From: Vulcanimicrobiota bacterium
Lineage (GTDB): Bacteria; Vulcanimicrobiota; Vulcanimicrobiia; Vulcanimicrobiales; Vulcanimicrobiaceae
Direction of reading: 5' to 3'
DNA length: 64,000 bases
NCBI GenBank assembly: GCA_013036095.1
Contig: JAAXCW010000001.1
Coordinates: forward strand, 62,001 to 126,000
The notes beneath the pieces were generated by a model. It was not told the origin of the DNA and made no database searches. It saw only the letters and a list, made by a program, of their open reading frames with translations. Position numbers and translations under genes: made by a program. Positions 3,814 through 27,497 of this stretch are shown here, in pieces. Position 1 is the stretch's first letter. Each line of letters opens with the position of its first letter.

Positions 3814-4941
3814 TTATTCGCCGCCTGTGGATAAAGCGCCTATAATCGCGCGTCCCTTTCCGTGGCTGTCATCCTGAGCTTGTCGCAGGAGCGCCATCGA
3901 ATACGCGGCCGACAAATACGCCAGCGTGGATTCGGCCCCCATATTAAGGTTGACGGAAGTTTCGTTGAGTCCGTCGAGACAGCCGCCGCCGTTGGCCATC
4001 GCGATACCGCGGGAGTTCCTCCCCAAGTACCAGTCCAAGCCAAGTTGGGCGGTCTTCGCGAACGCGAGGTCCCCGGTCGCCTCGTATGCAGCCAGCGCCG
4101 CATCGACCAGCGAAACGGCTTCCAAGGGCTGCTGAGAATAGCGGGGCCGCGGCCCGCCGCGGGGATACCACCCTTCGTTTCCGATCGGCACGAAGACGCC
4201 GTCTTCGATCGTCACGCGCTCGTAAAATGCGAGGCTGCGCAATCCTATGGACTTGACGTCTTCGTCGGCCAGCGCCGCGCCCGCGCGCAGCATCGCTTCG
4301 GAGAGACGCGCATTATCGTAGGTCATGACATCTTCGAACCACTCCCAGTCCGCGGCGCAGGTCGCTTCGAAGCGCGCTTTCAGCGAGCCGGCCAGTTTGC
4401 GAAGCGCCTCGCTGTAGGCGGGCAGTTCGATGTCGGCGATGCTCGCGTGACATGCGTGCGCCAGCCCGATGACCGCATACGATTGTGAACGCGCGTACTG
4501 CAGCCAGTCGATCGAGTTCAAGCCTTTATTGAAGAGCCGCTTGCACAGCCGGCGCCAGGTTGCGCGCGGCGCGTGGCGCATGCCGAAGCCCAGCGCCCAT
4601 AGGGCGCGCCCAACGGAATCGTGCGTTCCCACGCAGTCGAGCCACTGCCGGTCATAGCCCATGAAATTGTGGAAACGTCCGTCGGGCAGTTGTGCGTCTT
4701 GCAAGAAAGCCAGATAAATTGGAGCCAGCCGCAGCGCTTCGGCGTCGCGCGGATCGATGGCCAATTTTTGGTAGACGACGATCAGCGCGCGGGCGACGTC
4801 GTCGGTGCAGTATCCCGTTGCGCGATTCGGAATATCTTCCGTCGCGTGTTGAATAACGCCCACGTCGTCGCTGAGCGTTATGAGATGTTCGAGACTAGGC
4901 TGAATGGACGAGCTCCAATTCGGGCGGAGCCAGCTCGGCAA
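3814..4941 (-). CDS. Alpha/alpha-barrel protein paired with a glycosyltransferase
   Basis: A 375-residue cytoplasmic-looking protein without signal peptide. Segments such as GYCTDDVARAL, LPDGRFHNFM, WGL-type helices and GWYPRGGPRPRYSQQPLEA look like the helical-barrel (six-hairpin) proteins that commonly accompany GT4 glycosyltransferases. Its start overlaps the 3' end of the upstream glycosyltransferase by 47 bases, so the two are co-translated. The last roughly 27 residues (containing RQAQDDSHG) are encoded by a copy of the dispersed repeat, so the C-terminus is probably a recent extension. Substrate unknown; a role in sugar or glycan handling is inferred. Confidence 0.75.
   Translation of the reverse strand: MPSWLRPNWSSSIQPSLEHLITLSDDVGVIQHATEDIPNRATGYCTDDVARALIVVYQKLAIDPRDAEALRLAPIYLAFLQDAQLPDGRFHNFMGYDRQWLDCVGTHDSVGRALWALGFGMRHAPRATWRRLCKRLFNKGLNSIDWLQYARSQSYAVIGLAHACHASIADIELPAYSEALRKLAGSLKARFEATCAADWEWFEDVMTYDNARLSEAMLRAGAALADEDVKSIGLRSLAFYERVTIEDGVFVPIGNEGWYPRGGPRPRYSQQPLEAVSLVDAALAAYEATGDLAFAKTAQLGLDWYLGRNSRGIAMANGGGCLDGLNETSVNLNMGAESTLAYLSAAYSMALLRQAQDDSHGKGRAIIGALSTGGE
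3866..3895. repeat. Dispersed repeat fragment inside a coding 3' end, copy 2
   Basis: Contains TGTCATCCTGAGCTTGTCGC, the start of the dispersed element, inside the last codons of the upstream-paired helical protein. It encodes the AQDDSHG stretch. Confidence 0.65.
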
Positions 4942-8145: not shown

Positions 8146-8718
8146 TTATGGGCTGTCCGCCTCGACGTTGAGCGAGATGTCGATACTGTTGCCGACGATG
8201 ACCGGACCGAAGCCCATGCCCCACTGCGAGCGTTCGATGGTGCCCGTCGCAGCGTAAGCAATAACAGAACGTCCGCGCGGCGTCTTTCCTGCGCCGACCA
8301 CGCCCGCGCTAAGCGTGACGGGATGCGTTTGGCCGTGCATCGTCAGGTTGCCGACGATCGTAAAATGTTTCGGATCCGTGCCCGTGATCTTCGTGCTTTG
8401 GAAAGTCATGTTGGGATACGTTGCGACATCGAAGTAATGGCCCGAACGAATGTCGTTGTCGCGCGTACCGTTATGCGTATCGACGTTCGACGGGTCGAGC
8501 TCCGCGCTGACCTCGATCGGAATCTGACTTCCCGACGGCAGCTTTACAACCGCACTCTTTATCGGAATGGTACCGATGACCGGCACGATGCCGAAATGAC
8601 GGGCGGTAAACTGCGCCGTGCTGTGGTTCGGGTCAACGCTCCACGTCTCGGTCGCGGCGAGCGCGATCGCCGTCGTGGCAACGGAAAATGCGAGGCTGAG
8701 CGCGGCTAATCGTTTCAT
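8146..8718 (-). CDS. YceI-family exported lipid-binding protein (copy B)
   Basis: A 190-residue periplasmic lipocalin-like YceI protein that by family knowledge binds isoprenoid or other amphiphilic molecules. It has a signal peptide (LAALSLAFSVATTAIALAA), ETWSVDPNHSTAQFTARHFG at the start of the domain, and the motifs DIRSGHYFDVATYPNMTFQS and VVGNLTMHGQTHPVTL. It is a close tandem duplicate of the gene at 8761-9333, same length and direction, so the pair arose by local duplication. Confidence 0.93.
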   Translation of the reverse strand: MKRLAALSLAFSVATTAIALAATETWSVDPNHSTAQFTARHFGIVPVIGTIPIKSAVVKLPSGSQIPIEVSAELDPSNVDTHNGTRDNDIRSGHYFDVATYPNMTFQSTKITGTDPKHFTIVGNLTMHGQTHPVTLSAGVVGAGKTPRGRSVIAYAATGTIERSQWGMGFGPVIVGNSIDISLNVEADSP

Positions 8719-8760: not shown

Positions 8761-9333
8761 TTAGGGGCGGGCCGCCTCGACGTTCAGCGAGATATCGATG
8801 CCGTTGGCGACGACAATAGGCCCGAAACCCAGCCCCCACAGCCTGCGATCGAGCGAGCCCTTCGCAGCGTAGGCGATTACGGCACCGCCCCGCGGCGTTT
8901 TGAGCTCGCCCACTACAGCCGCATTCAACGTTACCGCATGCGTTTGGCCATGCATTGTCAGATTGCCGACAATGGTAAAGTGCCTTGGATCGGTGCCGGT
9001 GATTTTGGTGCTTTGAAACGTCATGCTTGGAAAGGTCGCGACGTCAAAATAGTTGCCGGAGCGTAAATCTTTGTCGCGCGAGCCATTGTGCGTATCCACA
9101 TTCGAGGGGTCGAGTTCCGCGCTGACCTCGATTGGAATCTGGCTGTCCGGGTCGAGCTTCACGACGACCTTCTTCACCGGAATACTGCCGGCGACCGGGA
9201 CGATGCCGAAATGACGCGCCGTAAATTGCGCGGCCACGTGGCCGGGATCGACCGTCCAAGCCTCTGTAGCGGCCACGGCACTCGTGCACGTGGCGACCGA
9301 GAAAAGCAAGCCGAGCGCGGCAGATCTTGTCAT
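8761..9333 (-). CDS. YceI-family exported lipid-binding protein (copy A)
   Basis: 190 residues with signal peptide (LGLLFSVATCTSAVAA) and the YceI domain: EAWTVDPGHVAAQFTARHFG, DLRSGNYFDVATFPSMTFQS and VGNLTMHGQTHAVTL. It is the upstream gene of the tandem pair, separated by about 40 bases from copy B, and the two probably share a promoter. Differences between the copies are scattered, which fits an older duplication kept by selection. Confidence 0.93.
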   Translation of the reverse strand: MTRSAALGLLFSVATCTSAVAATEAWTVDPGHVAAQFTARHFGIVPVAGSIPVKKVVVKLDPDSQIPIEVSAELDPSNVDTHNGSRDKDLRSGNYFDVATFPSMTFQSTKITGTDPRHFTIVGNLTMHGQTHAVTLNAAVVGELKTPRGGAVIAYAAKGSLDRRLWGLGFGPIVVANGIDISLNVEAARP

Positions 9334-10371: not shown

Positions 10372-11454
10372 CTAGCGTGCGCCGATTGGCGCGGAGGGTC
10401 CAATGCGCGAACCTTCTGGCGCGACCGTACCCGGTTCGATCCGCGCATCGTGTCCGATGACCGAGCCTTTGCCGATCTTCGCGTTTGCACCGACGATCGA
10501 ACGGCTCGCGATGATCGTTTCTTCAATCGTCGCACCTTCTTCAACTGCGACGTCATCCCACAGCACGGAGTCCCTAATCGCAGCATTGGCCGCAATCCGG
10601 CAATTTTTTCCAAGAACCACGTTCGGGCCGACTTGCGCCGCGCGCGCGATGATCGTGCCTTCACCGATATGCACCGGCGCGACGAGATTAGCGCAATCTG
10701 CATGAACCGCGCCTGGCCCGCTGATTCCGGGCTCGATCTTGAGCGGCATCACTCCGCTCAGCACGTCGCGATGCAGGGTGAGGTAGTGCTCCGGCCGTCC
10801 GACGTCGATCCAATAGTCTTCCGTCGGATAGGCGTAAAGCGGCTGCCCGTCGGCTAGGATTTTCGGAAACGTTTCGCGTTCGATCGATACGTTTCGCCCA
10901 GGTGGAATGAATCTCAAAACTTCGGGCTCGAGCAGATAGGTGCCCGCGTTGATTTCGTTGGTCGGCTCCGTCCCTTTGGGCGGCTTCTCAATGAATTGGG
11001 AGATGCGGCCGGACTCGTCATGCACCACACAGCCAAATGACGACGGGTCTTCTACCTTTATAAGGTGCAGCACGCCGAGGCCCCCTTTCTCCTTGTGGTA
11101 GGCGATCATCGCGCGCAGATCGAGGCTCGTGAGCACATCGCCGTTCATCATAAAGAACGGACCGGTGATGTGTTGTTCGACGTTTTTTATGGCGCCCGCG
11201 GTTCCGAGCGGCTCGTCCTCGATCACATACGTAATCTTCATATCGAGGCGCGAGCCGTCGCCGAAATATTCGGTAATCGCCTGCGGCATATAGCCCGCGG
11301 GCAGAATCACATCGCGAATGCCGGCCTCGTATAAGCGTTCGAGCGTTCGCGCCAAAAAGGGCACGCCTACAATCGGAACCATGGGTTTTGGCGTGCCGAA
11401 GGTAAGCGGCCGCAGCCGCGTTCCTTCACCACCGACCAAGATGACCGCTTGCAC
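10372..11454 (-). CDS. Sugar-1-phosphate nucleotidyltransferase (GMPP/GlmU-like)
   Basis: 360-residue NDP-sugar pyrophosphorylase. The N-terminal Rossmann-like nucleotidyltransferase has the signature ILVGGEGTRLRPLTFGTPKPM (residues about 5-24), IEDEPLGTAGAIKN, FMMNGDVLTSLDL and FIEKPP. The C-terminal third is a left-handed beta-helix with hexapeptide repeats (VAPVHIGEGTIIARAAQVGP, VLGKNCRIAANA, IGKGSVIGHD). This arrangement is that of eukaryote-like GDP-mannose pyrophosphorylases and bacterial RfbA/ManC-like enzymes. The sugar is uncertain; mannose-1-phosphate is a reasonable guess. Confidence 0.88.
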   Translation of the reverse strand: MQAVILVGGEGTRLRPLTFGTPKPMVPIVGVPFLARTLERLYEAGIRDVILPAGYMPQAITEYFGDGSRLDMKITYVIEDEPLGTAGAIKNVEQHITGPFFMMNGDVLTSLDLRAMIAYHKEKGGLGVLHLIKVEDPSSFGCVVHDESGRISQFIEKPPKGTEPTNEINAGTYLLEPEVLRFIPPGRNVSIERETFPKILADGQPLYAYPTEDYWIDVGRPEHYLTLHRDVLSGVMPLKIEPGISGPGAVHADCANLVAPVHIGEGTIIARAAQVGPNVVLGKNCRIAANAAIRDSVLWDDVAVEEGATIEETIIASRSIVGANAKIGKGSVIGHDARIEPGTVAPEGSRIGPSAPIGAR

Positions 11455-11551
11455 GCTAAAACCTCCGGAGGGGCATCTTCCCTTCCGCGCAGCGGCGCAA
11501 AACGCTTGCGCGAATCGGCCACGGTTGTGTACGATAGGCGTCGCGCACCCA

Positions 11552-11622
11552 TCCCGGGTCGTTCAACGGTAGGACAGCAGACTCTGAATCTGCTTATCGG
11601 AGTTCGAATCTCTGCCCGGGAG
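11552..11622 (+). tRNA. tRNA-Gln (anticodon CTG)
   Basis: Cloverleaf: acceptor TCCCGGG pairs with CCCGGGA, the anticodon stem GCAGA/TCTGC encloses loop CTCTGAA (anticodon CTG), and the T arm is CGGAG-TTCGAAT-CTCTG. The discriminator is G. CCA is not encoded. Only three bases separate it from the next tRNA. Confidence 0.95.
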
Positions 11623-11625
11623 CGC

Positions 11626-11698
11626 GGCCCCATCGTCTAGAGGCCTAGGACGCCGGGTTCTCAACTCGGTAACACCGGTTCGAATCCGGTTGGGGCTA
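11626..11698 (+). tRNA. tRNA-Glu (anticodon CTC)
   Basis: Acceptor GGCCCCA pairs with TGGGGCT (first pair G-T). Anticodon stem CCGGG/CTCGG holds loop TTCTCAA (anticodon CTC), and T arm is ACCGG-TTCGAAT-CCGGT. Discriminator A; CCA not encoded. The borosin methyltransferase gene ends 12 bases beyond it on the other strand. Confidence 0.95.
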
Positions 11699-11710
11699 AA
11701 AACTCACACG

Positions 11711-12484
11711 TTACGCAAGCCCAAGCTTGCGAACCATTTCGCGATCAGGCTGCGCGGTTGCGGTGGGCGGGACGTACAGGGTCGACAACGCGCCGATTTT
11801 GGCTTCGAGCATACGCCCAAGGTCGACTCGCGCGATCACCGGGTCGCAACAAACATACTGCGCGGCATCATAGATTTGTACTTCATGAGATGCGGGATAA
11901 AACTCAAGTAAACGATCACGGAGCACTTCCAAACCGGCCAAGCTCCAGGCATCGAACTGTTTTTTGAACCCCTTTTCTGCGATCACGCCAATTTGCCAGA
12001 GCACCAGGGCACTGCGTGTATCGAACGTTCGCGCATAGACCAGGAAGTCGGTTGCCTCGAAGCTTTGACAGCCTGCATTTCCGGGATCGACGCCGAGGTC
12101 TGCGAACAAACAGTCCTCCGCCGAAATCGCGGGAAGCATCGTCGCCTGGTAACCCTCGGCGCGAGCGCGACGTACAGCTTCGTGCATCGGCTGCGCAAAG
12201 ACCCCTGGATGGCCATATGATACGAAGCAAACTTCACTGCCCTCGCGCACCGGTTTCAGCACTCGCTCGACCATTTCTTCATACGTCTGCGTGCGCTCTT
12301 TTTCGACCGCGTAGAGATCGTGCAATGACTGTGTCGAATCGTTCAGCTCTTCGAGCCAGTATTGCGTTAGCGGATCAGCCGGCAGAAAGAAAACCTTGTG
12401 TGCGCGCTCGATGCATGCAAGCGCTTCGGGCGAGGTTTGCGCCGCTATTTTGATTCCCGTCCCGACGACGGTAAGAGAACCTGA
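11711..12484 (-). CDS. Split-borosin alpha-N-methyltransferase (SonM-like), start codon uncertain
   Basis: Tetrapyrrole-methylase-fold enzyme of about 257 residues resembling the borosin backbone N-methyltransferases (Shewanella SonM, fungal OphMA). From the N-terminus it reads GSLTVVGTGIK (SAM site), ERTQTYEEMV (Arg and Tyr four apart, matching the catalytic Arg/Tyr), YGHPGVF, ISAEDCLFADLGVDPGN, QSFEATDFLVYA and VLWQIGVIAEKG. All of these segments match SonM in order, from recollection of the SonM sequence. Odd: no ATG, GTG or TTG lies between the in-frame stop at 12539-12541 and GSLTVVG; the first is a TTG at 12323-12325 that would delete the SAM motif. The coordinate given is the point aligned to the SonM start. 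The precursor gene lies 22 bases upstream. Confidence 0.85.
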   Translation of the reverse strand, partial: SGSLTVVGTGIKIAAQTSPEALACIERAHKVFFLPADPLTQYWLEELNDSTQSLHDLYAVEKERTQTYEEMVERVLKPVREGSEVCFVSYGHPGVFAQPMHEAVRRARAEGYQATMLPAISAEDCLFADLGVDPGNAGCQSFEATDFLVYARTFDTRSALVLWQIGVIAEKGFKKQFDAWSLAGLEVLRDRLLEFYPASHEVQIYDAAQYVCCDPVIARVDLGRMLEAKIGALSTLYVPPTATAQPDREMVRKLGLA

Positions 12485-12506
12485 CTTCCTAGCGGGCGAT
12501 GCCGCG

Positions 12507-12767
12507 CTATGCGGGCCTATCGAAACTAAGGCTGATGGTCAGCGTGCAGCTGTTCAACGCCCCTTGTAGTGCGGCTGAGGCCGGCATCTCGCCGGTAATA
12601 GCCTTCGTTATGTCCGCTTGATCGCCGTCGAGCAAAAGCTTCTTGTGTTCGTCTTTTAGGCCCGCCGCGTCCATTGCTTCATTCGCTGACGCTCTGGACT
12701 TACTGAACTTCGCACGCTCGGCCGGATCGCGGGCCAAACGCAGCACATATTCGCTGAGGGATGCCAT
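12507..12767 (-). CDS. Split-borosin precursor peptide (SonA-like)
   Basis: 86 residues. The leader MASLSEYVLRLARDPAERAKF...ANEAMDAAGLKDEHKKLLLDGD matches the helical borosin-binding-domain pattern (LSE.L.RL..DP, A...AGL..E....LL.GD), followed by a linker (MPASAALQGAL) and a C-terminal core NSCTLTISLSFDRPA rich in beta-branched and hydrophobic residues, as in borosin cores. The ATG at 12765-12767 has GGAAGGGG upstream. The SonM-like gene follows immediately on the same strand. Modification of the core by iterative backbone N-methylation is the inference; the exact residues and any proteolytic release are unknown. Confidence 0.82.
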   Translation of the reverse strand: MASLSEYVLRLARDPAERAKFSKSRASANEAMDAAGLKDEHKKLLLDGDQADITKAITGEMPASAALQGALNSCTLTISLSFDRPA

Positions 12768-12901
12768 TAAATGCCCCTTCCATAAAAAGGATGAAGATTT
12801 CGCCTGCATTGCTTCATTGGACAGCTTCGACTCCCTGCCCGAACCAATCGGGTACCTCGGGGAGTGCCGGAAAAGCTCACGTGCTCCAAGAATTGAGACA
12901 T

Positions 12902-15685
12902 GTGCGACGATCCGCAGGGAAATCGATCCTGCCAACAGGCACGGTAACGTTTCTGTTTACCGACATCGAAGGCAGCACGCACCGCTGGGAAGCATTTCAT
13001 GACGAGATGGCGCGTACCGTCAAACGTCACGATGCCATTCTCGACCGGGTTCTCAAAAAGCATGGCGGCGTCGTCTTCAAGAAGGCGGGCGACGCTTTCT
13101 GCGCGGCCTTCGATCGCGCATCGAACGCGGCCACCGCTGCGGTCGCTGCTCAGCGGGCGTTTGCGGACGAAGATTTTTCAGAGATCGAAGGCCTGTATGT
13201 GCGCATGGCCTTGCACACCGGAGAAGCGGAAGAACGTGCCGGCGACTATTTCGGGTCAACCGTGAATCGCGTCGCGCGGCTACTCTCAATCGGCTGCGGC
13301 GGACAGGTCTTGGTTTCAGGAATCTGCGCCGATCTCGTCGGCGAAGACTTGGGTCCCAAGATGCAGCTGCGCGATCTTGGCGTGCACCGTCTGAAGGACC
13401 TCACGGAAGCAGAGCACATTTTTCAACTGTGCGCGCCAGGCCTGCGCACAGATTTTCCGCCGCTACGTTCATCCGACGTTTGGCCAAATAATCTACCGCT
13501 TCAACTCACCAGTTTCGTCGGACGCAAGAAAGATCTAGAGTCGCTCAAGCAAGGCGTGCGGACGTCGCGCCTGATCACCATAGTCGGCGCGGGCGGGGTT
13601 GGGAAGACGAGGCTTGCGATACAGCTCGGCGCCGAAGTTTTAGATCAATATGCAGATGGTGGCGTATGGCTCTTAGAGTTCGCTTCGATCACCGACCCAG
13701 CTTTACTTGTCCACGTTCTGGCCTCAACACTCAACGTACGTGAATCCCGCGATCCCCTCACGGTGAAACACGTCGTAAAATCGCTTGCGGCCAAGCATGC
13801 CCTCTTGATTTTCGACAATTGCGAGCACCTCATCGGCGAAGTAGCGAAGATTGCGGATGCGCTATTACGCGAATGTCCGAATGTCAGAATTATCGCGACG
13901 TCTCGGCAACCACTGCAGATAGCCGGCGAATGGATTCATCAACTCGCTCCAATGGCAGTCCCGCGCGACAGCGGGGTGATTAGCCTCGACGAAGCGATGC
14001 ACTACAGTGCAATAGCATTGTTTGTCGAACGCGCCCGCGCGGCAGATAATAAATTCCTTCTTACGCCTGAAAACGCAACAACGGTCGCGGATATATGCCG
14101 GCGGCTGGACGGCATCGCGCTGGCTATCGAGCTTGCGGCCGCGCGCGTCAAAGTGCTCAACGTCGAAACCCTGGAGGAGCGCCTAAACGAACGGCTCCGG
14201 CTCCTAACCGGCGGAAGCCGGGCCGACTTGCCGCGACACCAGACGATGCGCGCGCTCATCGATTGGAGCTATGATCTTCTCGATCCGCGCGAAAGACTGC
14301 TGTTCGATCGCTGCGCAATATTTGCGGGCGCATTCTCATTCCAAGCGGCTAGTGCCATCTGCGCGGATGACTTTCTGAAGGCCGATGATATTTTCGACGT
14401 GCTTATATCGCTGGCAGAAAAGTCGCTCCTGGTGTCGGACCCAGACGAGTTGAACGCGCATTACCGGTTACTGGAATCGACCCGAGAATATGCGCTCGAA
14501 AAACTCAAAGAGTCCGGCAACTACCAGCAACTAGCGACGAAGCATGCCGAGTTTTATCGTGCGATCGTCCAAGAGGCGGACGTAAACTTCCACAAAATCC
14601 CGCAGCTAGAATGGTACAGCCGCTTGCGGGATCACGTGGAGAATTTCCGCTCCGCGCTCCAGTGGTCGCTCGGCGAGCGGCAAGACGCGGCTTTGGGCGG
14701 AGCGCTCGCGGGCGGCTTGGAGCGGTTTTGGTACGAGACGGGGCGCCTCGGGGAAGGGCGTCTTTGGATCTCCCGCGCGCTGGAGCTCACCGACGAGAAA
14801 CAGAATCCTGAAATAGCCGCACGGCTGTGGCTCGCGCGCGCCGTTCTCTTGGCCGGCACCTCGCGGGGAGCCGAGAGCCAAAAGGCAGCCGAACGCGCCC
14901 AAACACTTTATGAATCCGTGGGCGACAAGCGCGGTACGGCTTATGCTTTACGCGCGTGCGCGATTGCTTTGCGCGATACTCACCAGTTGCCGGAAGCCGA
15001 AAACATGTTGCGTCGAGCGGCAGATCTTTTTGAGGAGACGGGCGACGGTGGCGGTTTGGCGCTGGCGCTCGCGACGCTCGGCTCCATCTGTTCCTACCGC
15101 GGTGACCTCGAGACGGCTCGCACGCTTTGCGCCCGGGGGCTTGATGCGGCTCGCGCGCAAGGTGCTGAATTCGCGTTCACGCTAGGATCGCTCTATCTCG
15201 CTGACATCGAATTCCAATGCGGAAGATTCGAAGAGGCGCTCACCCACGCTGAAGATGCGCTGACGTTCGCCGAACGTAACAAGAACTCGCGCGTCGCCGC
15301 GAACCTTCGAAACAATTTGGCCGCATACCGTATCGCCCTCAACCAACATGACGCGGCTGCAGCGGATGCGCGTCAAGCCTTGAGCATGTTGCGGGAGAGC
15401 CAGAACAGCTATGATATCGGAATCGCCGTGCAACACTTGGCGTTGATTGCTGCCTTGCGCGGAGACGCCACGCGGGCATCCCGGCTCACCGGCTATGTGG
15501 ATGCCTACTTCAAAAACAGTGGAATTCAACGCGAACCGACCGAAAAATGGTGCTACGACCGCATAATGGCGTCGCTTCACGATCAACTAGAAGAGCACAA
15601 CATTTCGTTACTCATGCGCGATGGCGCGTCCCTCACGGAGCCGGAAGCCGTCGCTCAGGCGTTGGCCGGAAACCCACTTTTTTAA
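12902..15685 (+). CDS. Class III adenylate/guanylate cyclase - STAND ATPase - TPR regulator
   Basis: About 927 residues. Residues 10-170 are a class III cyclase domain: TVTFLFTDIEGSTHRWE with the metal Asp, KKAGDAFCAAF with the second Asp, and GDYFGSTVNRVARLL with the Asn/Arg transition-state pair. Next is an NB-ARC-type ATPase with Walker A GAGGVGKT (about 229-236), Walker B LLIFDNCEHL and IATSRQPL, then TPR-like helices from about 660 to the end. No DNA-binding domain is seen. The frame is open from 12761, but that ATG would overlap the divergent borosin gene; GTG at 12902 puts the usual few residues before LPTGTVTF. Signalling role is inferred. Confidence 0.85.
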   Translation: MRRSAGKSILPTGTVTFLFTDIEGSTHRWEAFHDEMARTVKRHDAILDRVLKKHGGVVFKKAGDAFCAAFDRASNAATAAVAAQRAFADEDFSEIEGLYVRMALHTGEAEERAGDYFGSTVNRVARLLSIGCGGQVLVSGICADLVGEDLGPKMQLRDLGVHRLKDLTEAEHIFQLCAPGLRTDFPPLRSSDVWPNNLPLQLTSFVGRKKDLESLKQGVRTSRLITIVGAGGVGKTRLAIQLGAEVLDQYADGGVWLLEFASITDPALLVHVLASTLNVRESRDPLTVKHVVKSLAAKHALLIFDNCEHLIGEVAKIADALLRECPNVRIIATSRQPLQIAGEWIHQLAPMAVPRDSGVISLDEAMHYSAIALFVERARAADNKFLLTPENATTVADICRRLDGIALAIELAAARVKVLNVETLEERLNERLRLLTGGSRADLPRHQTMRALIDWSYDLLDPRERLLFDRCAIFAGAFSFQAASAICADDFLKADDIFDVLISLAEKSLLVSDPDELNAHYRLLESTREYALEKLKESGNYQQLATKHAEFYRAIVQEADVNFHKIPQLEWYSRLRDHVENFRSALQWSLGERQDAALGGALAGGLERFWYETGRLGEGRLWISRALELTDEKQNPEIAARLWLARAVLLAGTSRGAESQKAAERAQTLYESVGDKRGTAYALRACAIALRDTHQLPEAENMLRRAADLFEETGDGGGLALALATLGSICSYRGDLETARTLCARGLDAARAQGAEFAFTLGSLYLADIEFQCGRFEEALTHAEDALTFAERNKNSRVAANLRNNLAAYRIALNQHDAAAADARQALSMLRESQNSYDIGIAVQHLALIAALRGDATRASRLTGYVDAYFKNSGIQREPTEKWCYDRIMASLHDQLEEHNISLLMRDGASLTEPEAVAQALAGNPLF

Positions 15686-15755
15686 GTATCCGCCCGATCG
15701 TTTTCCAAATGCATTTCCCAGCACCGGTTAGAAAACGAGTGGCGCGAAAACCGCT

Positions 15756-16121
15756 ATGTTACGGGCTTTTCACACGTCCTGCCGTGGCGCCGTTCGAACT
15801 CTTCGATCGAAAGCGGCCTCGAGACCAGGTCGAACGCATCCGGAAATGGGCACACTTAATTGCTTGCTGCGCGTGCGTGACGATGTGTTCTTAGAAGTGA
15901 TCGCTTCCGATTCGGCCGCTGATCGGCCCGCGCGGTCGCGCTGGTTCGGGCTCGATGACGCGAAAGATTGCTCGTCACGGCGCCGTACTCGGCCGGGAAA
16001 CTCGAATCTCTCGTGGAGATCGATCGTGGTTTTTCGCGGTGCTCCGGGACGGGTCGCTTCCGAACGAGATTGCGTGAACGCTCGAAAAAATAGAACGCGT
16101 GTATGGCCGCCGCTCCCATAA
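15756..16121 (+). pseudogene. Remnant of a Glyoxalase_3-like (VOC) gene
   Basis: The stretch translated from 15846 reads MGTLNCLLRVRDDVFLEVIASDSAADRPARSRWFGLDD, which follows the pattern G.HNAL..L.DD.YLEVI.PDP....PARPRWFGLDD of glyoxalase-like domain proteins. Residues before and after this island do not continue the family, and the expected C-terminal half is absent or scrambled in other frames. I read it as a degraded gene. No ribosome binding site is evident. Confidence 0.5.
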
Positions 16122-16210
16122 ATTATGGTTTCTGGAGGACCACCCCACCAACGGCGCCCGGGTGGCCGGACCACGCAGATATATTCGCACCGACCCGACC
16201 TACAAATGAG

Positions 16211-16316
16211 GGCCTGGAGGGAGCCCCAGGCCGGGGACGCCCTTGGGGCCGTAAAGATGAAAGGTTTGTTCCAAGTCTAAGTACCAAGTTAGCGGCCCCC
16301 AGGCATGCCTGGGGGC
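16211..16316. other. GC-rich hairpin and perfect palindrome upstream of an exported-protein gene
   Basis: A hairpin with arms GGCCTGG (16211-16217) and CCAGGCC (16226-16232) is followed by a perfect 22-base palindrome at 16295-16316 centred on GCATGC. No T-run follows, so it is not a standard terminator. It may be a structured 5' leader or a protein-binding site. Confidence 0.45.
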
Positions 16317-16371
16317 TCACCCTATTGCTACAAATTCGGTTAACAAACCGGACACTTTTTCCGGAGGGTAA

Positions 16372-16695
16372 ATGTCGAAATTAGTTGCCTTTTTTCTCGC
16401 GATTTCGGTACTTCTGCCGATTGCTGGCGCCCAAGCCGCATCTTCGATTCCAAAGGGCGGGGTCGGCGTTCATAACGGGACCAATATGGTCACCATTAAG
16501 AACCACAAATTCGTCATCGTCGTGAAAAACAACGAGGTCGTCAGCGTCAACGAGAATCGCGGCGGCAAAATGGTGGCGGTCAAAGGCTCGGCATCAAAGC
16601 GCAAAGGCTTTACTGTATATTATCGTGACTGCTCCGCCGCTGTCTATAGCAACTACTATCCCTACCGGTGGCTGTACTGGTTCTGGTGGTGCTAG
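16372..16695 (+). CDS. Small exported protein with aromatic C-terminus
   Basis: 107 residues: signal peptide (LVAFFLAISVLLPIAGAQAA), a short basic domain (NGTNMVTIKNHKFVIVVKNNEVVSVNENRGGKMVAVKG) and an unusual Tyr/Trp-rich tail ending YYPYRWLYWFWWC. Two cysteines (YRDC and the last residue). GGAGGG precedes the ATG; a CCGGA/TCCGG hairpin sits right before that site. A strong terminator follows the gene. Not assigned to any known family. Confidence 0.65.
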   Translation: MSKLVAFFLAISVLLPIAGAQAASSIPKGGVGVHNGTNMVTIKNHKFVIVVKNNEVVSVNENRGGKMVAVKGSASKRKGFTVYYRDCSAAVYSNYYPYRWLYWFWWC

Positions 16696-16722
16696 CCTTA
16701 GTAGAATAGCGCTTCCGTAAAG

Positions 16723-16752
16723 AGAGCCGGAGCGATAGCTCCGGCTCTTTTT
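16723..16752 (+). terminator. Rho-independent terminator
   Basis: Stem AGAGCCGGAGC / GCTCCGGCTCT with a GATA loop, followed by TTTTC. It closes the small exported-protein gene at 16372-16695. Confidence 0.9.
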
Positions 16753-16768
16753 CTTCGGCGAAGAGCCC

Positions 16769-16981
16769 GTGCGAAAGGGTTTCCTCGCGACATCACTCTT
16801 CCCGGCGAGCATCAGCGCCGCTACGGCGGCCGTGCCGGCCCACGAGCTCATCTCGCAAAAAGCAGCGCAGCCGCAAGCGGCTGCCTTGACCACATCCGGA
16901 CACGGCATGGCGTCGTCAAAGAAGGCGAAGCCGGCATCGCACAAGTTTGCCAGCGTCGGCCCAAACGGAAAAAAGAAGTAA
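16769..16981 (+). CDS. Possible small protein, weak support
   Basis: A 70-residue frame starting with GTG (MRKGFLATSLFPASISAATAA...) that looks like a weak signal sequence followed by an Ala/Lys-rich tail ending PNGKKK. There is no clear ribosome binding site, and it lies immediately after a terminator. It may be chance. Confidence 0.25.
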   Translation: MRKGFLATSLFPASISAATAAVPAHELISQKAAQPQAAALTTSGHGMASSKKAKPASHKFASVGPNGKKK

Positions 16982-17160
16982 CCCACTCAAACGTTCGATA
17001 GTCAAAACGCCTCGAGAGCTGGGTGCCGGTGGCGGATCCTCTACTTCCCTTCTACTTACAGGCTATAACCGAACGTACTCCATTGTAATCGCGTGCGCCG
17101 ATCCTGCCATCCTCACCGAGTCCGGCAATCCATGTGAACGCGTATTAACCAGCCAGCAAG

Positions 17161-17182
17161 TTCGAATCCCGTTGGGCTACCA
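17161..17182 (+). other. tRNA 3'-end fragment (possible attachment-site remnant)
   Basis: Reads TTCGAATCCCGTTGGGCTA followed by CCA: a T-loop, 3' T-stem strand, 3' acceptor strand and an encoded CCA. The 5' part of the tRNA is missing and the bases before it do not pair with the T-stem. The three intact tRNAs in this window do not encode CCA, so the fragment probably came with foreign DNA. Confidence 0.55.
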
Positions 17183-17231
17183 AGAGTTTTTCGGGAGACC
17201 ACGAAAATGCGTGCGACAAAAGGAGACGTGA

Positions 17232-17657: not shown

Positions 17658-17687
17658 AAGTCGCGGCTGGTCCGCGACGTCGCCACA

Positions 17688-18035
17688 TCAGCCCGGTGCG
17701 GCGCAAACTCCCTGCTGGACCTTGCGTGCCAGCGTCGTCGCTGTTGCCCGGGGAATTCCGTAGCGTTCCATAGACGCGACGTTGTAGGCGCGACCGCCGG
17801 CCGCTAGAACCTTCCACGACCCGTTCTTCTTCACGAGGAGAACGGACTCTGAGGTATTGCCGCTCGCTCTCGATACGCCGGCTTCGGCGTAGTTGCCGAC
17901 AATGGTGATAGGAAAGACTGTTCCAGTTACGTGGTCGTGACGCATAATGGCGCCAAAGACCGCCTTGTGATCGGCGGCGCTGGCGCATATGGCCGAGGAT
18001 AGCGCGACCGTTGTCAGGAGCAATAGAACTGGCAT
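17688..18035 (-). CDS. Small exported protein (NG.W..L..GG family, member 1)
   Basis: 115 residues with signal peptide (VLLLLTTVALSSAICASA) and a domain containing GNYAEAGVSR, VLLVKKNGSWKVLAAGG and ERYGIPRATATTLARKV. The NG.W..L..GG...... M..RYGIP.A.A..L pattern recurs in the protein at 19473-19832 and more loosely at 45745-46143. The ATG at 18033-18035 with GAGG upstream is chosen over an upstream TTG. Function unknown; probably periplasmic. Confidence 0.7.
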   Translation of the reverse strand: MPVLLLLTTVALSSAICASAADHKAVFGAIMRHDHVTGTVFPITIVGNYAEAGVSRASGNTSESVLLVKKNGSWKVLAAGGRAYNVASMERYGIPRATATTLARKVQQGVCAAPG

Positions 18036-18138
18036 AGCGCCTCGTTGTTCCAAAAAACGTGAAGCCGGCCCTTTTCAAGGAGTGGTTCACCTTTGCGGCA
18101 CAAGAGTAAACAGCTGCTCTTTTTCAGAGGAGGCCGTT

Positions 18139-18825
18139 ATGCTTTCCGTGAGTGAGGCCGTTTCTTCATCCTTCGCCGACTCGCGCGCCACGCTCATGAC
18201 ATATCGCAAGGCGCTTTACATCTGCCTCGCGCTGGCGGCATTCGCGGGTCTGCTCGGAATATTTTTCCCGATAGGATCGCAGAATCAGGCGCTGGCGGCG
18301 GTGAGCTCGTTCTATTACGTCATCATTCTCTCCGTCGTGCTCAGCTATTTCGGTCTTGCGGCCGCCGTGCGCACGATCCGGCCGCATTTTGGCATGACCG
18401 TGGGGCGTTTCTTTGGCGCTCTCCTGTACGGCCTTGCTGCGGGGATTGCCATCGAAATCGCCGCCGTCTTCTTGATCATTCCCGGCATCTGGATTGGCGC
18501 CAAACTCTCCTTGACGATTCCGATGTATTTGCTTTATCCCGATGAGGTGTTCGGAAAAACTTGGAGTGCAACGGCGTATCGCTTTTGGCCAACCCTCGGT
18601 GTAGTAATCTTGACGGCGATCATTACCGCAGTGTTGGCGGGCATCGCCACCGTCGCGGCGGTCGGAATTATCACGGTTCTGCCGTCCGCGGCGATCGTGC
18701 TGGCTCCTCTGGCGCTTTTAGTTTTTGCCTTCGTGCAGCAATTCCATTGGCTCGCACTCGTACGTTGGAGTCAAAATCTCGTAGAACATCCGGTGACTCT
18801 CGTTCCAGTCGCCGCAAATGCGTAG
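18139..18825 (+). CDS. Polytopic membrane protein
   Basis: 228 residues, about six hydrophobic helices (ALYICLALAAFAGLLGIFF, YYVIILSVVLSYFGLAAAV, ALLYGLAAGIAIEIAAVFLIIPGIW, TLGVVILTAIITAVLAGIATVAAVGII, IVLAPLALLVFAFVQQF). The segment PGIWIGAKLSLTIPMYLLYPDEVFGKTWSATAYR resembles uncharacterised membrane proteins with a glycerophosphodiesterase-type membrane domain. A very good ribosome binding site (AGAGGAGG) sets the start at 18139. Function unknown. Confidence 0.75.
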   Translation: MLSVSEAVSSSFADSRATLMTYRKALYICLALAAFAGLLGIFFPIGSQNQALAAVSSFYYVIILSVVLSYFGLAAAVRTIRPHFGMTVGRFFGALLYGLAAGIAIEIAAVFLIIPGIWIGAKLSLTIPMYLLYPDEVFGKTWSATAYRFWPTLGVVILTAIITAVLAGIATVAAVGIITVLPSAAIVLAPLALLVFAFVQQFHWLALVRWSQNLVEHPVTLVPVAANA

Positions 18826-18891
18826 CAACATGGGCACTCCCTCATGCTAGCTCCGGGAGGGGTTTTTAGCGGCGGGCGCAATCGCCATCCA

Positions 18892-19416
18892 ATGCCGCGT
18901 TTCATAGCCCTAACCGTGTGTGTTCTTATTTGCACTGTGTTGCTAGGACCGGCGGCCCAAGCAGCGTCCGTCCCGCAGACCGAGCGCGTTCGAATGCACG
19001 CGCTCACGGGGCCATACGACTTTTACCCAGCGAGTCTTCCGCCGGGGCTTAAGTACCTAAAGTGGAAACGCACCGCCCTATCACCGATGGCTTGCGGCAC
19101 AAATCTAAGCATCGTCTTTACAAATGGCGGCAAAGAAATTGATTGGTCGTCATCTCGCGATTGTAATGCCGACGCTAATGTAGCCTGTCGTGCGGACGGG
19201 TATCCAGGTTATGGATTTATTATGAGCGCAACATATAGCGCTAAAATTAATGGGCGACGCGTGTACTTCTCGTCCGGCAATCATGGATCAAATGCGTGGG
19301 CTTGCGTTCCGTTGCGCGTAGGCGGGTATGCAGACATGGCGGTCGTTGGTATATGGGAGAATTTCATGAAACCACGGGATGCGATGAATCTCGTCGCCTA
19401 CGCACAGCCTTTTTAA
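18892..19416 (+). CDS. Exported hypothetical protein
   Basis: 174 residues with a signal peptide (FIALTVCVLICTVLLGPAAQAA) and four or more cysteines in the mature part (MACGTN, RDCNADANVACRADG, WACVPL), suggesting disulfides and an extracytoplasmic location. No family recognised. The in-frame ATG at 18892 is used because the signal peptide begins there; there is no strong ribosome binding site. Confidence 0.6.
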   Translation: MPRFIALTVCVLICTVLLGPAAQAASVPQTERVRMHALTGPYDFYPASLPPGLKYLKWKRTALSPMACGTNLSIVFTNGGKEIDWSSSRDCNADANVACRADGYPGYGFIMSATYSAKINGRRVYFSSGNHGSNAWACVPLRVGGYADMAVVGIWENFMKPRDAMNLVAYAQPF

Positions 19417-19472
19417 AAAAAGAGACGCTTGATCTTTTTCATTTTTGAAAGAAAGTAAGGAGAACACACAGG

Positions 19473-19832
19473 TTGATCGCATTTGCAGCCGCGCTTTCGT
19501 TGCTCGCTGCCATCCCCGCTTACGCGGCGTCCTCAGCGCAGAAGACCGCCGTTGCGGCGCTCGTCGCAGCGTATCACGCACGCGGCTGGAGCGACATCGA
19601 GCAGCCCTCGTGTTTCGTTGTGCAAACGTGGGCGCAATGCGATTTCGGAACGGCGCACGGACGGGGGGAAGGCACCGCGTGGCTGCACCTAAAGAACGGC
19701 AAGTGGGCGTTCCTCGGTCAAGGCGGTGGCGTCACATACGCATCGATGATGGAGAAACGCTACGGCATCCCGCCGGCCGTCGCGAAACAGTTCCAAGCGA
19801 AACTCTGTCCGAACCCCTGCCCCGGTGCTTAG
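19473..19832 (+). CDS. Small exported protein (NG.W..L..GG family, member 2)
   Basis: 119 residues from a TTG start, with AAGGAG upstream. Signal peptide FAAALSLLAAIPAYAA; mature part AHGRGEGTAWLHLKNGKWAFLGQGGGVTYASMMEKRYGIPPAVAKQF and a Cys-rich end (CPNPCPGA). It shares the NGKW..LG.GGG and RYGIP motifs with the gene at 17688-18035. Function unknown. Confidence 0.68.
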   Translation: MIAFAAALSLLAAIPAYAASSAQKTAVAALVAAYHARGWSDIEQPSCFVVQTWAQCDFGTAHGRGEGTAWLHLKNGKWAFLGQGGGVTYASMMEKRYGIPPAVAKQFQAKLCPNPCPGA

Positions 19833-19835
19833 CGG

Positions 19836-23503: not shown

Positions 23504-25420
23504 TTACGGGGCGGCGGCGTGCGAGCGCATGATACCCGCTAACATGTCCGGCACGGCGGCAATGCGCTCGAGGTGCGGATATTTCAGGCCGTCGTGATAA
23601 TCGAGATCGATCGTTTGATACCAATGGCCTTGCTTTACAAGCAGATGAACCGGCGCGCTCGAACCTTTGGCGTCTTTAATAGCCTGCGTCCAGAGGTCGG
23701 CGCTAAAATCGCGCCCGTTAACTGCAACGACTTGCATGCCGGGCGCGAGTCCCGCCTTCCAAGCTGCCGAATCCTCGCGTACGTCGCCGACCGTTCCCGT
23801 TCCGCTTAACGTGACGCCGGCGTCGAACCAAGCGGGGACTCCGCGGCCGCCGCGGCCGTTGACGAATTTATTCGGCGTCTCGTTGAAAACGAGTTTGTAA
23901 CCCGCTCGCGCGATCTCGTCGGTGGGCGGAATCGGCGCGACCGTGTAGACGTATTTCTCGAAAAATCCATGCCAGTCGTACGGGACGACTTGATTCAGAT
24001 AGTTTTCGATATCTTCACGCGTGTACGTCACGACCTTTGGACCGGAGACGCCGCCCGCGAAGAGCCGTGTGTAGTCATCCAGCGACTTCGTGCCGTGGGA
24101 TTGCTCGCGAATGATCGTGTCCGCGTCGAGCCAGACCAGCTCGCCTTCCCGGTAGAAATCGCCGGCCGTGCGCCGCAAACTCGGATAGACGCCGCGCGCG
24201 CAGCAATAGTAGTACGGCGCGCCCGTTGTCGTGTCGATCAGCGGCGTCGTGTTTCGTCCGGGTTCGTAGGCGAGACCGGAATACAGCGAAGCTAAAAACT
24301 CCGGATAATCCTTCGGATCGCGAATGCCCGAGCGGAACGAGAGCATGTCGCCGATATATTGGTTCATGCCTTCGTATTGCCAAAGCAGTTCGGTGCGTTC
24401 CGGAAAAGGCTCGTTGTAATCGGGCTGCTGCAGGTCGAACGGGCGCCGGTACTTGCCGTTCCAGGAGTGCGAAAACTCGTGCGGCACCAAATCGCCGCTG
24501 AGCATTTGCTGGCGAGGGCTTGTCAAGAAATCGTCGCCCGCGCGATCGTCGCTCGACTGGTGATGTTCGATACCTTGGAATCCGAGCGTGTTGCTGAGCG
24601 TGAGCTCAGCGTGATACACGTTCCAGTGACGACCTCCGTACACCGCCATCGCTTCGGGCGTCAACTGTTTGTAGGCAGCGATTACTTTGTCGTCGATCTT
24701 CAAATCTTCCGGCGCGTCCGCGAACAGATCGAGATAGGTCGCGGCACCGCCGCCGGTCCAGGTCGTGATGTGTTTCACGTACGCGCCCATATCGGTCGGT
24801 GAATCGACCAGCGTCTCAAGTGAAACCGTCTCGAAATTCACGCGATTGCCGGAACGCGACGCCACCGGAAGCGCCGATGCAAAATCCCAGCCGGCCGGCA
24901 GAATGATCGATGCACGCGCGAAGTACTGTGTGTTGTCGATATTGCGTTGATAAAAGATGTAGCGGTTCCAGTTGCCGACCATGATATTCCGCGTCGCCAT
25001 GTTGTCGCCGCCGCCGTTGAGCAGCACGGTGAAATCAACGTTGACGGTGGAGGTGCCAGGCGGCACGTTGAGATGAAACGCGTACATGTCGACCTGGTCG
25101 CGCTGCCAGCGCAGCTGCTTGCCGCCGGCACTTACGCGCAATTCCGAAATATCAGTGAGCGGACCGGTCGGCCCGTGTTCGCCCGGTATCCACTCCGGGT
25201 AATCGATCGTAAACGGCCCGGGCGCCGCGGGAATGGTCATGTGCGCGTACGCGCGTCCGAGCGCAGATTTCCGCGCGTCGAGCACTATGGTCATCGGATT
25301 GCTCTGCGTCGCTAGCGGCCGGTCGAACTGCGCGTTCGGCAACGTTTGCGCGGATGCAGCGCCGCCGAGACCGGCCGCAAATGCCAGTGCAACGATGCCG
25401 GCTCGAGCTGCGTGCTTCAT
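23504..25420 (-). CDS. M61-family metallopeptidase with PDZ domain (copy 2)
   Basis: Exported glycyl-aminopeptidase-like enzyme of about 638 residues. Signal peptide (AGIVALAFAAGLGGAASAQ), N-terminal beta domain (DYPEWIPGEHGPTGPL), zinc motif HEFSHSWNGKYRRP with the third ligand in LWQYEGMNQYIG, and a C-terminal PDZ domain (DVREDSAAWKAGLAPGMQVVAVNGR). The ATG at 25418-25420 is preferred because GAGAGGGA lies just before it; an upstream in-frame ATG overlaps the preceding gene by ATGA. A tandem paralog lies upstream. Confidence 0.88.
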   Translation of the reverse strand: MKHAARAGIVALAFAAGLGGAASAQTLPNAQFDRPLATQSNPMTIVLDARKSALGRAYAHMTIPAAPGPFTIDYPEWIPGEHGPTGPLTDISELRVSAGGKQLRWQRDQVDMYAFHLNVPPGTSTVNVDFTVLLNGGGDNMATRNIMVGNWNRYIFYQRNIDNTQYFARASIILPAGWDFASALPVASRSGNRVNFETVSLETLVDSPTDMGAYVKHITTWTGGGAATYLDLFADAPEDLKIDDKVIAAYKQLTPEAMAVYGGRHWNVYHAELTLSNTLGFQGIEHHQSSDDRAGDDFLTSPRQQMLSGDLVPHEFSHSWNGKYRRPFDLQQPDYNEPFPERTELLWQYEGMNQYIGDMLSFRSGIRDPKDYPEFLASLYSGLAYEPGRNTTPLIDTTTGAPYYYCCARGVYPSLRRTAGDFYREGELVWLDADTIIREQSHGTKSLDDYTRLFAGGVSGPKVVTYTREDIENYLNQVVPYDWHGFFEKYVYTVAPIPPTDEIARAGYKLVFNETPNKFVNGRGGRGVPAWFDAGVTLSGTGTVGDVREDSAAWKAGLAPGMQVVAVNGRDFSADLWTQAIKDAKGSSAPVHLLVKQGHWYQTIDLDYHDGLKYPHLERIAAVPDMLAGIMRSHAAAP

Positions 25421-25431
25421 TTCATTCCCTC

Positions 25432-27339
25432 TCATTTCGCGTGCGGCCGCATGATCTGCGCGAACATATCGGTGGTTCCCGGTATTCGGACGAGGTGCGG
25501 ATGCTTCGCGCCGCCTCGATAATTCAGGGTAATGTTCTGATAGAAATCGCCTTGCTTCACCAGCAACACGATGGGCGAGAAACTCGCCGAAGTCGCAGCG
25601 ACGGCACCGTTCCAGGCATCTGGCGCAAATTCGCGGCCGTTCAATGCGACGATCTGCATTCCGTCACCTAAGCCGGCGTTCCACGCGGCCGAACCCTCGC
25701 GCACGTCGATGATGGTTCCATCCTCCTTCAGATTTACTCCGACGTCGTACCAGGACCCGATCGTTTTTCTGAGCGTCTCGCGGTTGGCTTCATAGGTATT
25801 CGGCTTCGCAGTGAAAACCAGCCGGTAACCCGCGCGCGCGATTTCGTCGGTCGGCGGTTGCGGCGCGATGGAATAGACATACTTCTGAAAAAAACCGTGC
25901 CAGTCATACGGCGCAACCTCACCGAGGTACCGCTCCAAGTCCGCGCGGGTATAAGTGACAACGTGCGGCCCCGACGTCCCTCCCGCATACACCTTAGCGT
26001 AATCGTCGATCGATTTCTTACCCTGGGTTAGTTGCCGGATAATCGTGTCGGCGTCCAGCCACATCAGTTCGCCTTCGGTGTAAAAATCGAAAGCATTACG
26101 CCGCAGCGATCCGTATGGGCCATCTGCGAGATAAAAGTACGGCGCGCCTGTGGTCAGATCGATGATCGGCGTTGTCTTGCGTCCCGGCTCGAAGGCCATC
26201 GACGAATAAATGTACGCGAAATACTCCGGGTAGTCCGAAGGCTTCCCTTTGATGCCGCTGCGGAACGCGAGTAGATCGCCCATGTACATGTTCATGCCTT
26301 CGTACTCCCAAAGCAGTTCGGTGTGCTCGGGGAATGGGCGGTTGAAGTTGGGCTGCTGCAGATCGAATGGGCGCCGGTACTTTCCGTTCCACGAATGGGA
26401 AAACTCGTGCGTCAGCAAATCTCCGCCCGCGAGCTGCTCGGCGTGATTGGTCAAGAATGTGTCGTCGCTACGATCGTCGCTCGATTGATGGTGCTCGATT
26501 CCCTGTGGCGGAATCAAATCGCTCAGTGTGAGCTCCGAGTGATAGACGTTCCAATGCCGTCCGCCGTAGAGCGCCATCGCCTCCGGCGTCATCCTTTTAT
26601 ACGCGGCGAGTTCACTTGCCGGCATCTTGAGATCTTCGGGATGATCGGCGAACAGATCGATGTACGTGTGCGTGCCCTGCCCGCTCCAGCCGACGATGTG
26701 GCGGTAGTAGCGCCCCGAGTCCGTCGGCGAATCGACGAGCGTCTCCAGCGTCACCGTTTTAAAGTCGATCCGGTTTCCGCTTCGCGCGGCGACCGGAAGC
26801 GCGCTGGCGTAATCCCAGGCCGGCGGTAGAATAAGGCTCGCGCGCACATAATACTGCGTGTTATTGATATCGGGCTGGTACAAGATGTAGCGATTCCAGT
26901 TGCCCACCATGACGTTGCGCGTCGCCAGCTGGCCGTCGACGAAATTGTTCGGATGGTTCAGCAGCACCGTGAAGTCAACGTTGACCGTGGCGACCCCGCT
27001 CGGAACGTTAATGTGAAAGGCGTACATGTCGACGCGGTCGCGCTCCCACGGGATCGATTGGCCGCCCGCACTGATTTTGAGCTCCGCCAGATCGTTGAGC
27101 GGTCCGGTCGGACCGTGCTCGCCCGGTATCCATTCCGGATACGACAGTGTAAAGGGTCCCGGTTTGACCGGTATCGTCATGTGCGAGTAAGCGTAGCCGC
27201 GCGGCGCGGTTCGCTCGTCGAGCACGACGGTCATCGGGTTACTCTTGGTTGCCAGCGGCGTCTGAAGCGACGCCGGGAGCGCCTGGGCCTGCGCCGCAAA
27301 AACGAATAAGGCGCAGAAAAAAATAGCGGTTCGCTGCAT
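25432..27339 (-). CDS. M61-family metallopeptidase with PDZ domain (copy 1)
   Basis: 635 residues, same layout as copy 2: signal peptide (TAIFFCALFVFAAQAQA), SYPEWIPGEHGPTGPL, HEFSHSWNGKYRRP zinc motif, LWEYEGMNMYMGD and a PDZ domain (DVREGSAAWNAGLGDGMQIVALNGREF). Start ATG at 27337-27339, at the signal peptide. The two copies are very similar through the catalytic domain and are co-directional with a coupled junction, so the cluster is a tandem duplication. Substrates unknown; the family prefers N-terminal Gly/Ala peptides. Confidence 0.88.
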   Translation of the reverse strand: MQRTAIFFCALFVFAAQAQALPASLQTPLATKSNPMTVVLDERTAPRGYAYSHMTIPVKPGPFTLSYPEWIPGEHGPTGPLNDLAELKISAGGQSIPWERDRVDMYAFHINVPSGVATVNVDFTVLLNHPNNFVDGQLATRNVMVGNWNRYILYQPDINNTQYYVRASLILPPAWDYASALPVAARSGNRIDFKTVTLETLVDSPTDSGRYYRHIVGWSGQGTHTYIDLFADHPEDLKMPASELAAYKRMTPEAMALYGGRHWNVYHSELTLSDLIPPQGIEHHQSSDDRSDDTFLTNHAEQLAGGDLLTHEFSHSWNGKYRRPFDLQQPNFNRPFPEHTELLWEYEGMNMYMGDLLAFRSGIKGKPSDYPEYFAYIYSSMAFEPGRKTTPIIDLTTGAPYFYLADGPYGSLRRNAFDFYTEGELMWLDADTIIRQLTQGKKSIDDYAKVYAGGTSGPHVVTYTRADLERYLGEVAPYDWHGFFQKYVYSIAPQPPTDEIARAGYRLVFTAKPNTYEANRETLRKTIGSWYDVGVNLKEDGTIIDVREGSAAWNAGLGDGMQIVALNGREFAPDAWNGAVAATSASFSPIVLLVKQGDFYQNITLNYRGGAKHPHLVRIPGTTDMFAQIMRPHAK

Positions 27340-27497
27340 GAGGCGGCATTCTCCGGAAAACATCCGGAATGCCTTTTGGAGCCGGAGCCGCCTGCACATT
27401 TGCGCCGTCCTTCAGGATCGGGTAGAATCTTGCCGTTATGCGCTAGCGACTGAGAGCCCACCCCAAACGTCCATCCCTACCCGGAGGTTCTCGTCGC

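Follow-up and report, generated by a model that had tools for sequence, protein, structure and literature searches.

A putative split borosin system with a start-less methyltransferase gene, bounded by tRNA-Glu repeats, in a Vulcanimicrobiota bacterium

Results

A predicted precursor-methyltransferase pair of the split borosin kind

A stretch of 64,000 nucleotides from a Vulcanimicrobiota bacterium (GenBank assembly GCA_013036095.1, contig JAAXCW010000001.1, positions 62,001 to 126,000 of the forward strand; hereafter the window) carries on its minus strand a small gene for a putative borosin precursor and, overlapping its end, a frame for a putative backbone N-methyltransferase. Judged by their sequences, the two form a split borosin system, a type of ribosomally synthesized and post-translationally modified peptide (RiPP) pathway, and we put the probability that this best explains the locus as a whole at about 85%. 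An earlier note, made from the DNA letters without database searches, had proposed this reading; it is borne out by the sequence and profile searches described here, from which we infer backbone N-methylation of the precursor. The assembly amounts to 2.58 Mb in 19 contigs with an estimated contamination of 6.6%, and its closest named relatives are Candidatus Eremiobacterota. Coordinates and strand of the pair were checked, and its features are as follows.

12507-12767, minus: borosin precursor, 86 amino acids, ATG start, TAG stop
12588-12758, minus: predicted borosin-binding domain (the leader), precursor residues 4-60, five predicted helices, from profile and structure model
12522-12548, minus: presumed core CTLTISLSF, precursor residues 74-82
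12774-12780, minus: ribosome-binding-site-like GAAGGGG, 6 bases 5' of the precursor ATG
11711-12538, minus: open frame of the putative alpha-N-methyltransferase, without a start codon; conserved domain from about 12484

The frame of the enzyme extends unbroken between a TGA and its TAA stop and holds, in the SonM-like order that had been read from the letters, the motifs VVGTGIK, RTQTY, YGHPGVF and ISAEDCLFADLGVDPGN. In a phmmer search of all PDB sequences it matched dbOphM (9.9e-59), SonM (2.5e-56), MroMA (1.1e-44) and also OphMA, and in an alignment it conserves all four of the SonM residues Y58, R67, Y71 and Y93, which were probed by mutation (PMC8429565). By sequence, then, the enzyme belongs with the borosin alpha-N-methyltransferases. 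It is extremely improbable that it is instead a tetrapyrrole methylase of the cobalamin type with an unrelated small gene beside it. Pfam TP_methylase does match at 68.1 bits, though this is the parent family of both kinds; the sole non-borosin row of the PDB search was the precorrin-3 methylase 3nut at 0.35, against 1e-58 for borosin enzymes, NCBIfam tetrapyrrole models scored 12-52 bits with cut-offs of 163-525, and a SonA-type precursor adjoins the enzyme. The searches placed neither the enzyme with cobalamin-type methylases nor the precursor with unrelated short proteins, a combination that the earlier note had named as one that would refute its proposal. A protein query search found one borosin-type enzyme in the genome, and a second TP_methylase match there is barely above the Pfam cut-off (28.4 vs 27.8).

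The precursor, the only one of its kind in this genome, ends in CTLTISLSFDRPA. A single-sequence PDB search with it gave only chance-level matches, and a profile was needed: one built from 13 precursors, with that of the window among its rows, matched SonA at 1.9e-12 and the clasp of dbOphM and OphMA at 3.7e-6 to 2.3e-5. With a leave-out profile built from the 54 precursors of loci whose titles do not mention Eremiobacterota, the window precursor scored 45.1 bits, compared with 7.6 for the best of 200 shuffles; the test is not wholly independent, since the 54 had been gathered by iteration from a profile whose six seed precursors included this one. With these scores and the enzyme matches at 1e-58, the pair is more than a chance juxtaposition. 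The structure model (mean predicted local distance difference test score, pLDDT, 71.5) is a five-helix bundle with helices at residues 4-13, 15-23, 25-34, 39-47 and 50-60 and a disordered tail; in Foldseek, SonA made up 11 of its 21 rows, and 10 of those 11 superpose at 1.9-2.1 Å over 50-54 columns, with E-values of 3.4 or worse. The leader is accordingly assigned, on profile and model, to the SonA-type borosin-binding domains, in agreement with the leader pattern noted earlier.

Several results weigh against this assignment. Foldseek E-values for so small a model were all 3 or worse; Pfam LigA matched the precursor under its cut-off (13.3 vs 25.3 bits); the sole NCBIfam match was to another domain, IniB_NTERM (20.3 bits, cut-off 40); and two TAL-effector rows (1.3e-8 and 2.8e-8) outrank OphMA in the search with the 13-precursor profile. 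The TAL-effector likeness was set aside, as both rows rest on one 17-residue stretch.

Purifying selection in two species

A second occurrence of the pair, locus L013 (PLLF01000009.1, a metagenome assembly), corresponds to contig C84 of the same-genus genome G001, so that the pair is present in two of the seven genomes of the genus. No pair was seen in the other five (G003 being only 56% complete), a point against the reading. The two enzymes are 79% identical, and their ratio of nonsynonymous to synonymous substitutions (dN/dS) is 0.086 (dS 1.56) over 257 aligned codons in an unbroken frame, and 0.06 over the first 50 codons; for the precursors it is 0.108 (dS 1.18). The L013 precursor has AAAGGGG 7 bases ahead of its ATG. 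An alignment of fusion, enzyme and precursor rows (A3) was dropped and another (A5) used instead: the L013 precursor showed only 29% identity in A3, which suggests that precursor rows there had been aligned to the wrong domain.

The enzyme is thus strongly constrained, and its protein is very probably made. A decaying pseudogene, or a start codon missing through assembly error, might be suspected from the contamination estimate, from the metagenomic origin of L013 and from a truncated enzyme remnant in genome G014 (L012); this explanation is largely refuted by the constraint and by the occurrence of the same junction in two different species, and we regard it as very unlikely.

Absence of a start codon and the precursor-enzyme junction

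As had been noticed from the letters, no ATG, GTG or TTG precedes the Rossmann motif in the enzyme frame; the first is a TTG at 12325, within the domain. The only start of genetic code table 11 before the motif is an ATA at -18, which reads ACA in L013, and L013 has no table-11 start between the upstream in-frame TAA and the motif. Nor is a ribosome-site-like sequence visible by eye upstream of the enzyme. Among 101 family members in which the motif was located (it could not be located in two of 103 segments), 96 have an ATG, GTG or TTG at -45 to -4 of the motif, the nearest lying at -8 in 49; besides the window and L013, the exceptions are L099 and the second enzyme copies of L022 and L044, which have ATA or CTG. 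Matches in genomes of the genus (7), the family (99) and the class (117) and in 79 relative loci included no third start-less relative. The loss of the start is real and common to the two species found.

The enzyme frame overlaps the end of the precursor at an offset of +1, and both the offset and the TAG are the same in L013. With no start of its own and this overlap, the enzyme requires either +1 frameshifting, which would yield a fusion, or very unusual initiation. The junction is the following.

12507-12518, minus: AGG CCC GCA TAG, last three precursor codons and stop; 11 of 12 bases identical in L013

A +1 frameshift at this end (AGG CCC GCR TAG) has in our estimate an even chance of being how the enzyme is made, and we slightly prefer it to odd initiation. 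The element AGGCCCGC[A/G]TAG is kept in both species at 11 of its 12 bases, compared with 6 of the preceding 12 and 8 of the following 12, and in L013 a shift into the enzyme frame is possible only within AAC AGG CCC GCG TAG. AGG is a rare codon (2.6 per 1000 among 14,050 codons from mechanically chosen open reading frames, ORFs) and sits three bases ahead of the last sense codon, like AAGGAG in prfB of the same genome, which keeps the classical +1 site AAGGAG CGT CTT TGA C.

Against frameshifting, the case rests on two sequences only; GCR is poor at re-pairing once shifted by +1, in contrast to the CTT of prfB; and no downstream stimulatory RNA structure was found beyond shuffles (z 0.23 and -0.62). 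The linker from TAG to SGSL appears by eye to be unconstrained, six of its eight codons differing non-synonymously between the species, and the ATA or CTG of L099 and of the second copies of L022 and L044 sets a precedent for odd initiation. A model of the fused chain reached a predicted template modelling score (pTM) of 0.56, with template modelling (TM) scores below 0.5 in all 50 PDB rows listed, and does not reveal whether the binding domain docks in cis.

The competing explanation is an ordinary split borosin without any fusion, whose enzyme initiates at a rare codon by reinitiation after the precursor stop, either at the ATA at -18 or at an AAG/ACG 7 positions before the Rossmann motif; we consider it a serious contender, only a little short of even odds. 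The commonest position of canonical starts, -8, lies beside that AAG/ACG, constraint rises at the SGSL motif, the ATA or CTG of the three exceptions seems to be in use there, and in the near relatives L007 and L016 the enzyme start, as read from translations, abuts or overlaps the precursor stop. On the other hand, the ATA is not shared with L013, AAG and ACG initiate very poorly, and no ribosome-site-like sequence was seen by eye at a normal distance before them. A further start-less species in which AGGCCCGCRTAG is kept while the linker varies would favour frameshifting.

Gene order across the family

The survey covered 97 enzyme loci: that of the window, 79 others (from the best 80 of 156 confirmed relatives) and 17 from whole genomes (L005-L012 and L092-L100). 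Copies and members of other families (L001-L004, L101, L102) were left out, and five pairs with an identical N-terminal stretch (L014/L093, L016/L094, L065/L067, L023/L024 and L026/L041) are copies or near-copies, counted twice. Within 3 kb and on the strand of the enzyme, a binding-domain precursor lies directly upstream in 60 of the 97 loci, lies further downstream in 10 and is fused to the enzyme N-terminus in two; in the other 25 none was found in this range. The two fusions, L098 from a genome of the window's family and L069 from Streptomyces melanogenes, have the binding domain in frame ahead of the methyltransferase, with no core evident by eye in the linker. In the remnant L012 (G014:C1:3360021-3360419) a binding-domain-like start runs in frame into the C-terminal half of a methyltransferase, and the join looks like an internal deletion.

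Borosin-type methyltransferases are common in the class: at an E-value of 1e-15 they occur in 18 of its 117 genomes, the present one included.

A regulator-like gene and tRNA-Glu repeats around the pair

The predicted divergent cyclase-ATPase gene is present, with tetratricopeptide repeats (TPR) also matched, as is the tRNA pair reported beside the locus, 12 bases from the enzyme stop. These and the repeat copies are listed here.

12890-15685 (about), plus: nucleotide-cyclase/ATPase/TPR gene, presumed regulator; start uncertain, the mechanical ORF beginning at 12761
11552-11623, plus: tRNA-Gln
11626-11698, plus: tRNA-Glu (CTC), presumed attachment site
11679-11698, plus: left repeat copy, the 3' end of tRNA-Glu
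17161-17183, plus: right repeat copy, one G fewer than the usual form

The presumed regulator matches Guanylate_cyc (42.5 bits), AAA_22 (30.0) and TPR_12 (64.9). Among the seven genus genomes its close ortholog (79%) occurs only in G001, alongside the pair; G002, G004, G005 and G006 have paralogs at 37-42%, and G003 (56% complete) has no homolog at the threshold. The regulator therefore goes together with the precursor-enzyme pair.

In L013 these three genes are flanked by exact 21-nucleotide direct repeats of the tRNA-Glu 3' end (36-56 and 4206-4226, 4170 bp apart), both of them repeat fragments and neither a tRNA gene. The unit measures 4.2 kb there and 5.5 kb in the window, where its two ends are the tRNA gene and a displaced 3' fragment in direct orientation, as in genomic islands at tRNA genes. 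The right-hand copy in the window was found by eye after ungapped searches had missed it, and scored 20 in a gapped scan, compared with at most 13 in three base shuffles; it is preceded by about 145 bases that also accompany repeat copies in G006 and G005. A nucleoside triphosphate (NTP) transferase gene with the tRNA pair is common to the window, G006, G005, G002, G001 and a second copy in the same assembly, and similarity to the window ends at 11698-11702, the end of tRNA-Glu, in all five comparisons. In the second copy (L126), 83 bases separate tRNA-Glu from DNA matching the window from 20347, and the site appears to be empty. The two copies (window 10372-11698 and G000:C2:308162; L121, L126) are 93% identical in protein, one having the island and the other lacking it; their presence in one assembly may reflect a duplication or, given the 6.6% contamination estimate, a mixed bin.

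In a family-wide search, repeat copies with at most one mismatch numbered 28 in G001, 13 in G006, 8 in G005, 2 in the genome of the window and 1 in G002, with none in G003 or G004, and a reversed-pattern control gave none in any genome. All 13 listed contigs of G001, G005 and G006 with at least two copies have them in the same orientation throughout. Three sister genomes hold tandem arrays (L122, L123, L125, L109) with spacings of 450-4641 bases in the stretches read and larger gaps, to about 14 kb, elsewhere (G006 contig C4); by eye, the repeats are flanked by at least two kinds of shared stretch. By their likeness we read these as integron-like cassette arrays, and the three-gene unit is probably mobile.

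Some observations argue against mobility: the right-hand repeat of the window is one base short, the G001 unit occupies a whole 4250-base contig so that its location in the genome is unseen, and the tRNA-Glu on G001 contig C23 is followed by other DNA. No integrase is among the three genes of the unit or in the one scanned ORF of 15700-17160, no systematic integrase search having been made here or elsewhere; a Phage_integrase fragment lies beside tRNA-Glu in G001.

Other parts of the window

The next island unit, at 17674-19834, is 87-92% identical to units between tRNA-Glu repeats of G006 and G005; for the NTP-transferase/tRNA stretch beside it the identity is slightly lower (86.5-88%). A pair of neighbouring M61 glycyl-aminopeptidase genes (23504-25435 and 25432-27399), seen as direct repeats, is apparently a duplication, and two adjacent genes (8146-8718 and 8761-9333) encode similar secreted-looking proteins of 190 amino acids, of which the first, when scanned, was YceI-like.

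Discussion

We propose that the 86-residue precursor is made first and that its N-terminal five-helix domain would dock on the methyltransferase, a dimer if it is like SonM. The flexible C-terminal core CTLTISLSF could then enter the active site and be methylated on backbone nitrogens from S-adenosylmethionine, probably at every second, hydrophobic residue. For want of a start or a visible ribosome site, the enzyme would be translated only by ribosomes arriving from the precursor. A +1 shift at a low rate would give a 351-residue chain of binding domain, core and methyltransferase, in small amounts beside abundant free precursor, and the precursor, enzyme and divergent regulator might move together as a small unit linked to the tRNA-Glu 3' end. 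The combined picture, in which the enzyme is made only by programmed +1 frameshifting and sits in a cassette of an integron-like array with tRNA-Glu 3' ends as recombination sites, is tentative and stands somewhat below even odds.

Very few enzymes, those of borosins among them, methylate the backbones of ribosomal peptides, and borosins raise the question of how their split and fused forms arose from one another. If the frameshift is real, a system that makes both free precursor and a precursor-enzyme fusion from a single message would represent a direct intermediate between the two and, to our knowledge, the enzyme would be the first of a RiPP pathway to be controlled by frameshifting. The setting also suggests a way in which a minimal yet complete RiPP unit can spread together with its presumed regulator.

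Our literature searches found no paper joining borosins with frameshifting, nor any joining programmed frameshifting with RiPPs and precursor peptides; for cassette-like arrays at tRNA genes and for islands of Eremiobacterota, none of the papers listed matched the present arrangement, and Eremiobacterota together with borosins were met only in PMC9259500, which concerns another enzyme family and a different RiPP.

Comparison with known systems places the pair closest to SonM/SonA of Shewanella oneidensis, a type IV split borosin in which SonA is methylated at L63 and I65 (PMC8429565). Both have a separate precursor (86 residues in the window, about 75 in Shewanella) with a five-helix binding domain, and in both the methyltransferase has about 260 residues and carries Y58, R67, Y71 and Y93. 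SonA L63 and I65 are two residues apart, the spacing of the hydrophobic residues of CTLTISLSF, and by this analogy L76, I78, L80 and F82 are the likely N-methylation sites. Unlike SonM/SonA, the frames in the window overlap, the enzyme is start-less, the core is CTLTISLSF, a cyclase-ATPase regulator is present and tRNA-Glu repeats lie around the unit.

In type 0 borosins the core is N-terminal and the methyltransferase C-terminal in one protein (PMC11395268). The hypothetical frameshift product would have the same order, and only that product would take the type 0 form, since in the window precursor and enzyme are encoded in different reading frames, offset by +1. The fungal OphMA and dbOphMA share the methyltransferase domain (1e-58) and a clasp region that the binding domain matches, but have the enzyme first and the core last in a single protein (PMC8429565, PMC11395268). 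EreM, the FkbM maturase of pythonamide in marine Eremiobacterota, likewise effects RiPP backbone N-methylation, predicted here, in the same phylum, but is of an unrelated enzyme family and acts on a proteusin precursor (PMC9259500). As in the tRNA-gene islands of Islander, a tRNA gene and a same-orientation 3' fragment of it bound the insert (PMC4383910). Tandem tRNA islands are already known: among its 3919 islands Islander lists 4 tandems with at least three members, and it counts a tandem only where every member has its own integrase (PMC4383910). Units of the kind found in the window differ from these in their size, about 0.45-5.5 kb in the stretches read, and in having up to 6-8 repeats in a row.
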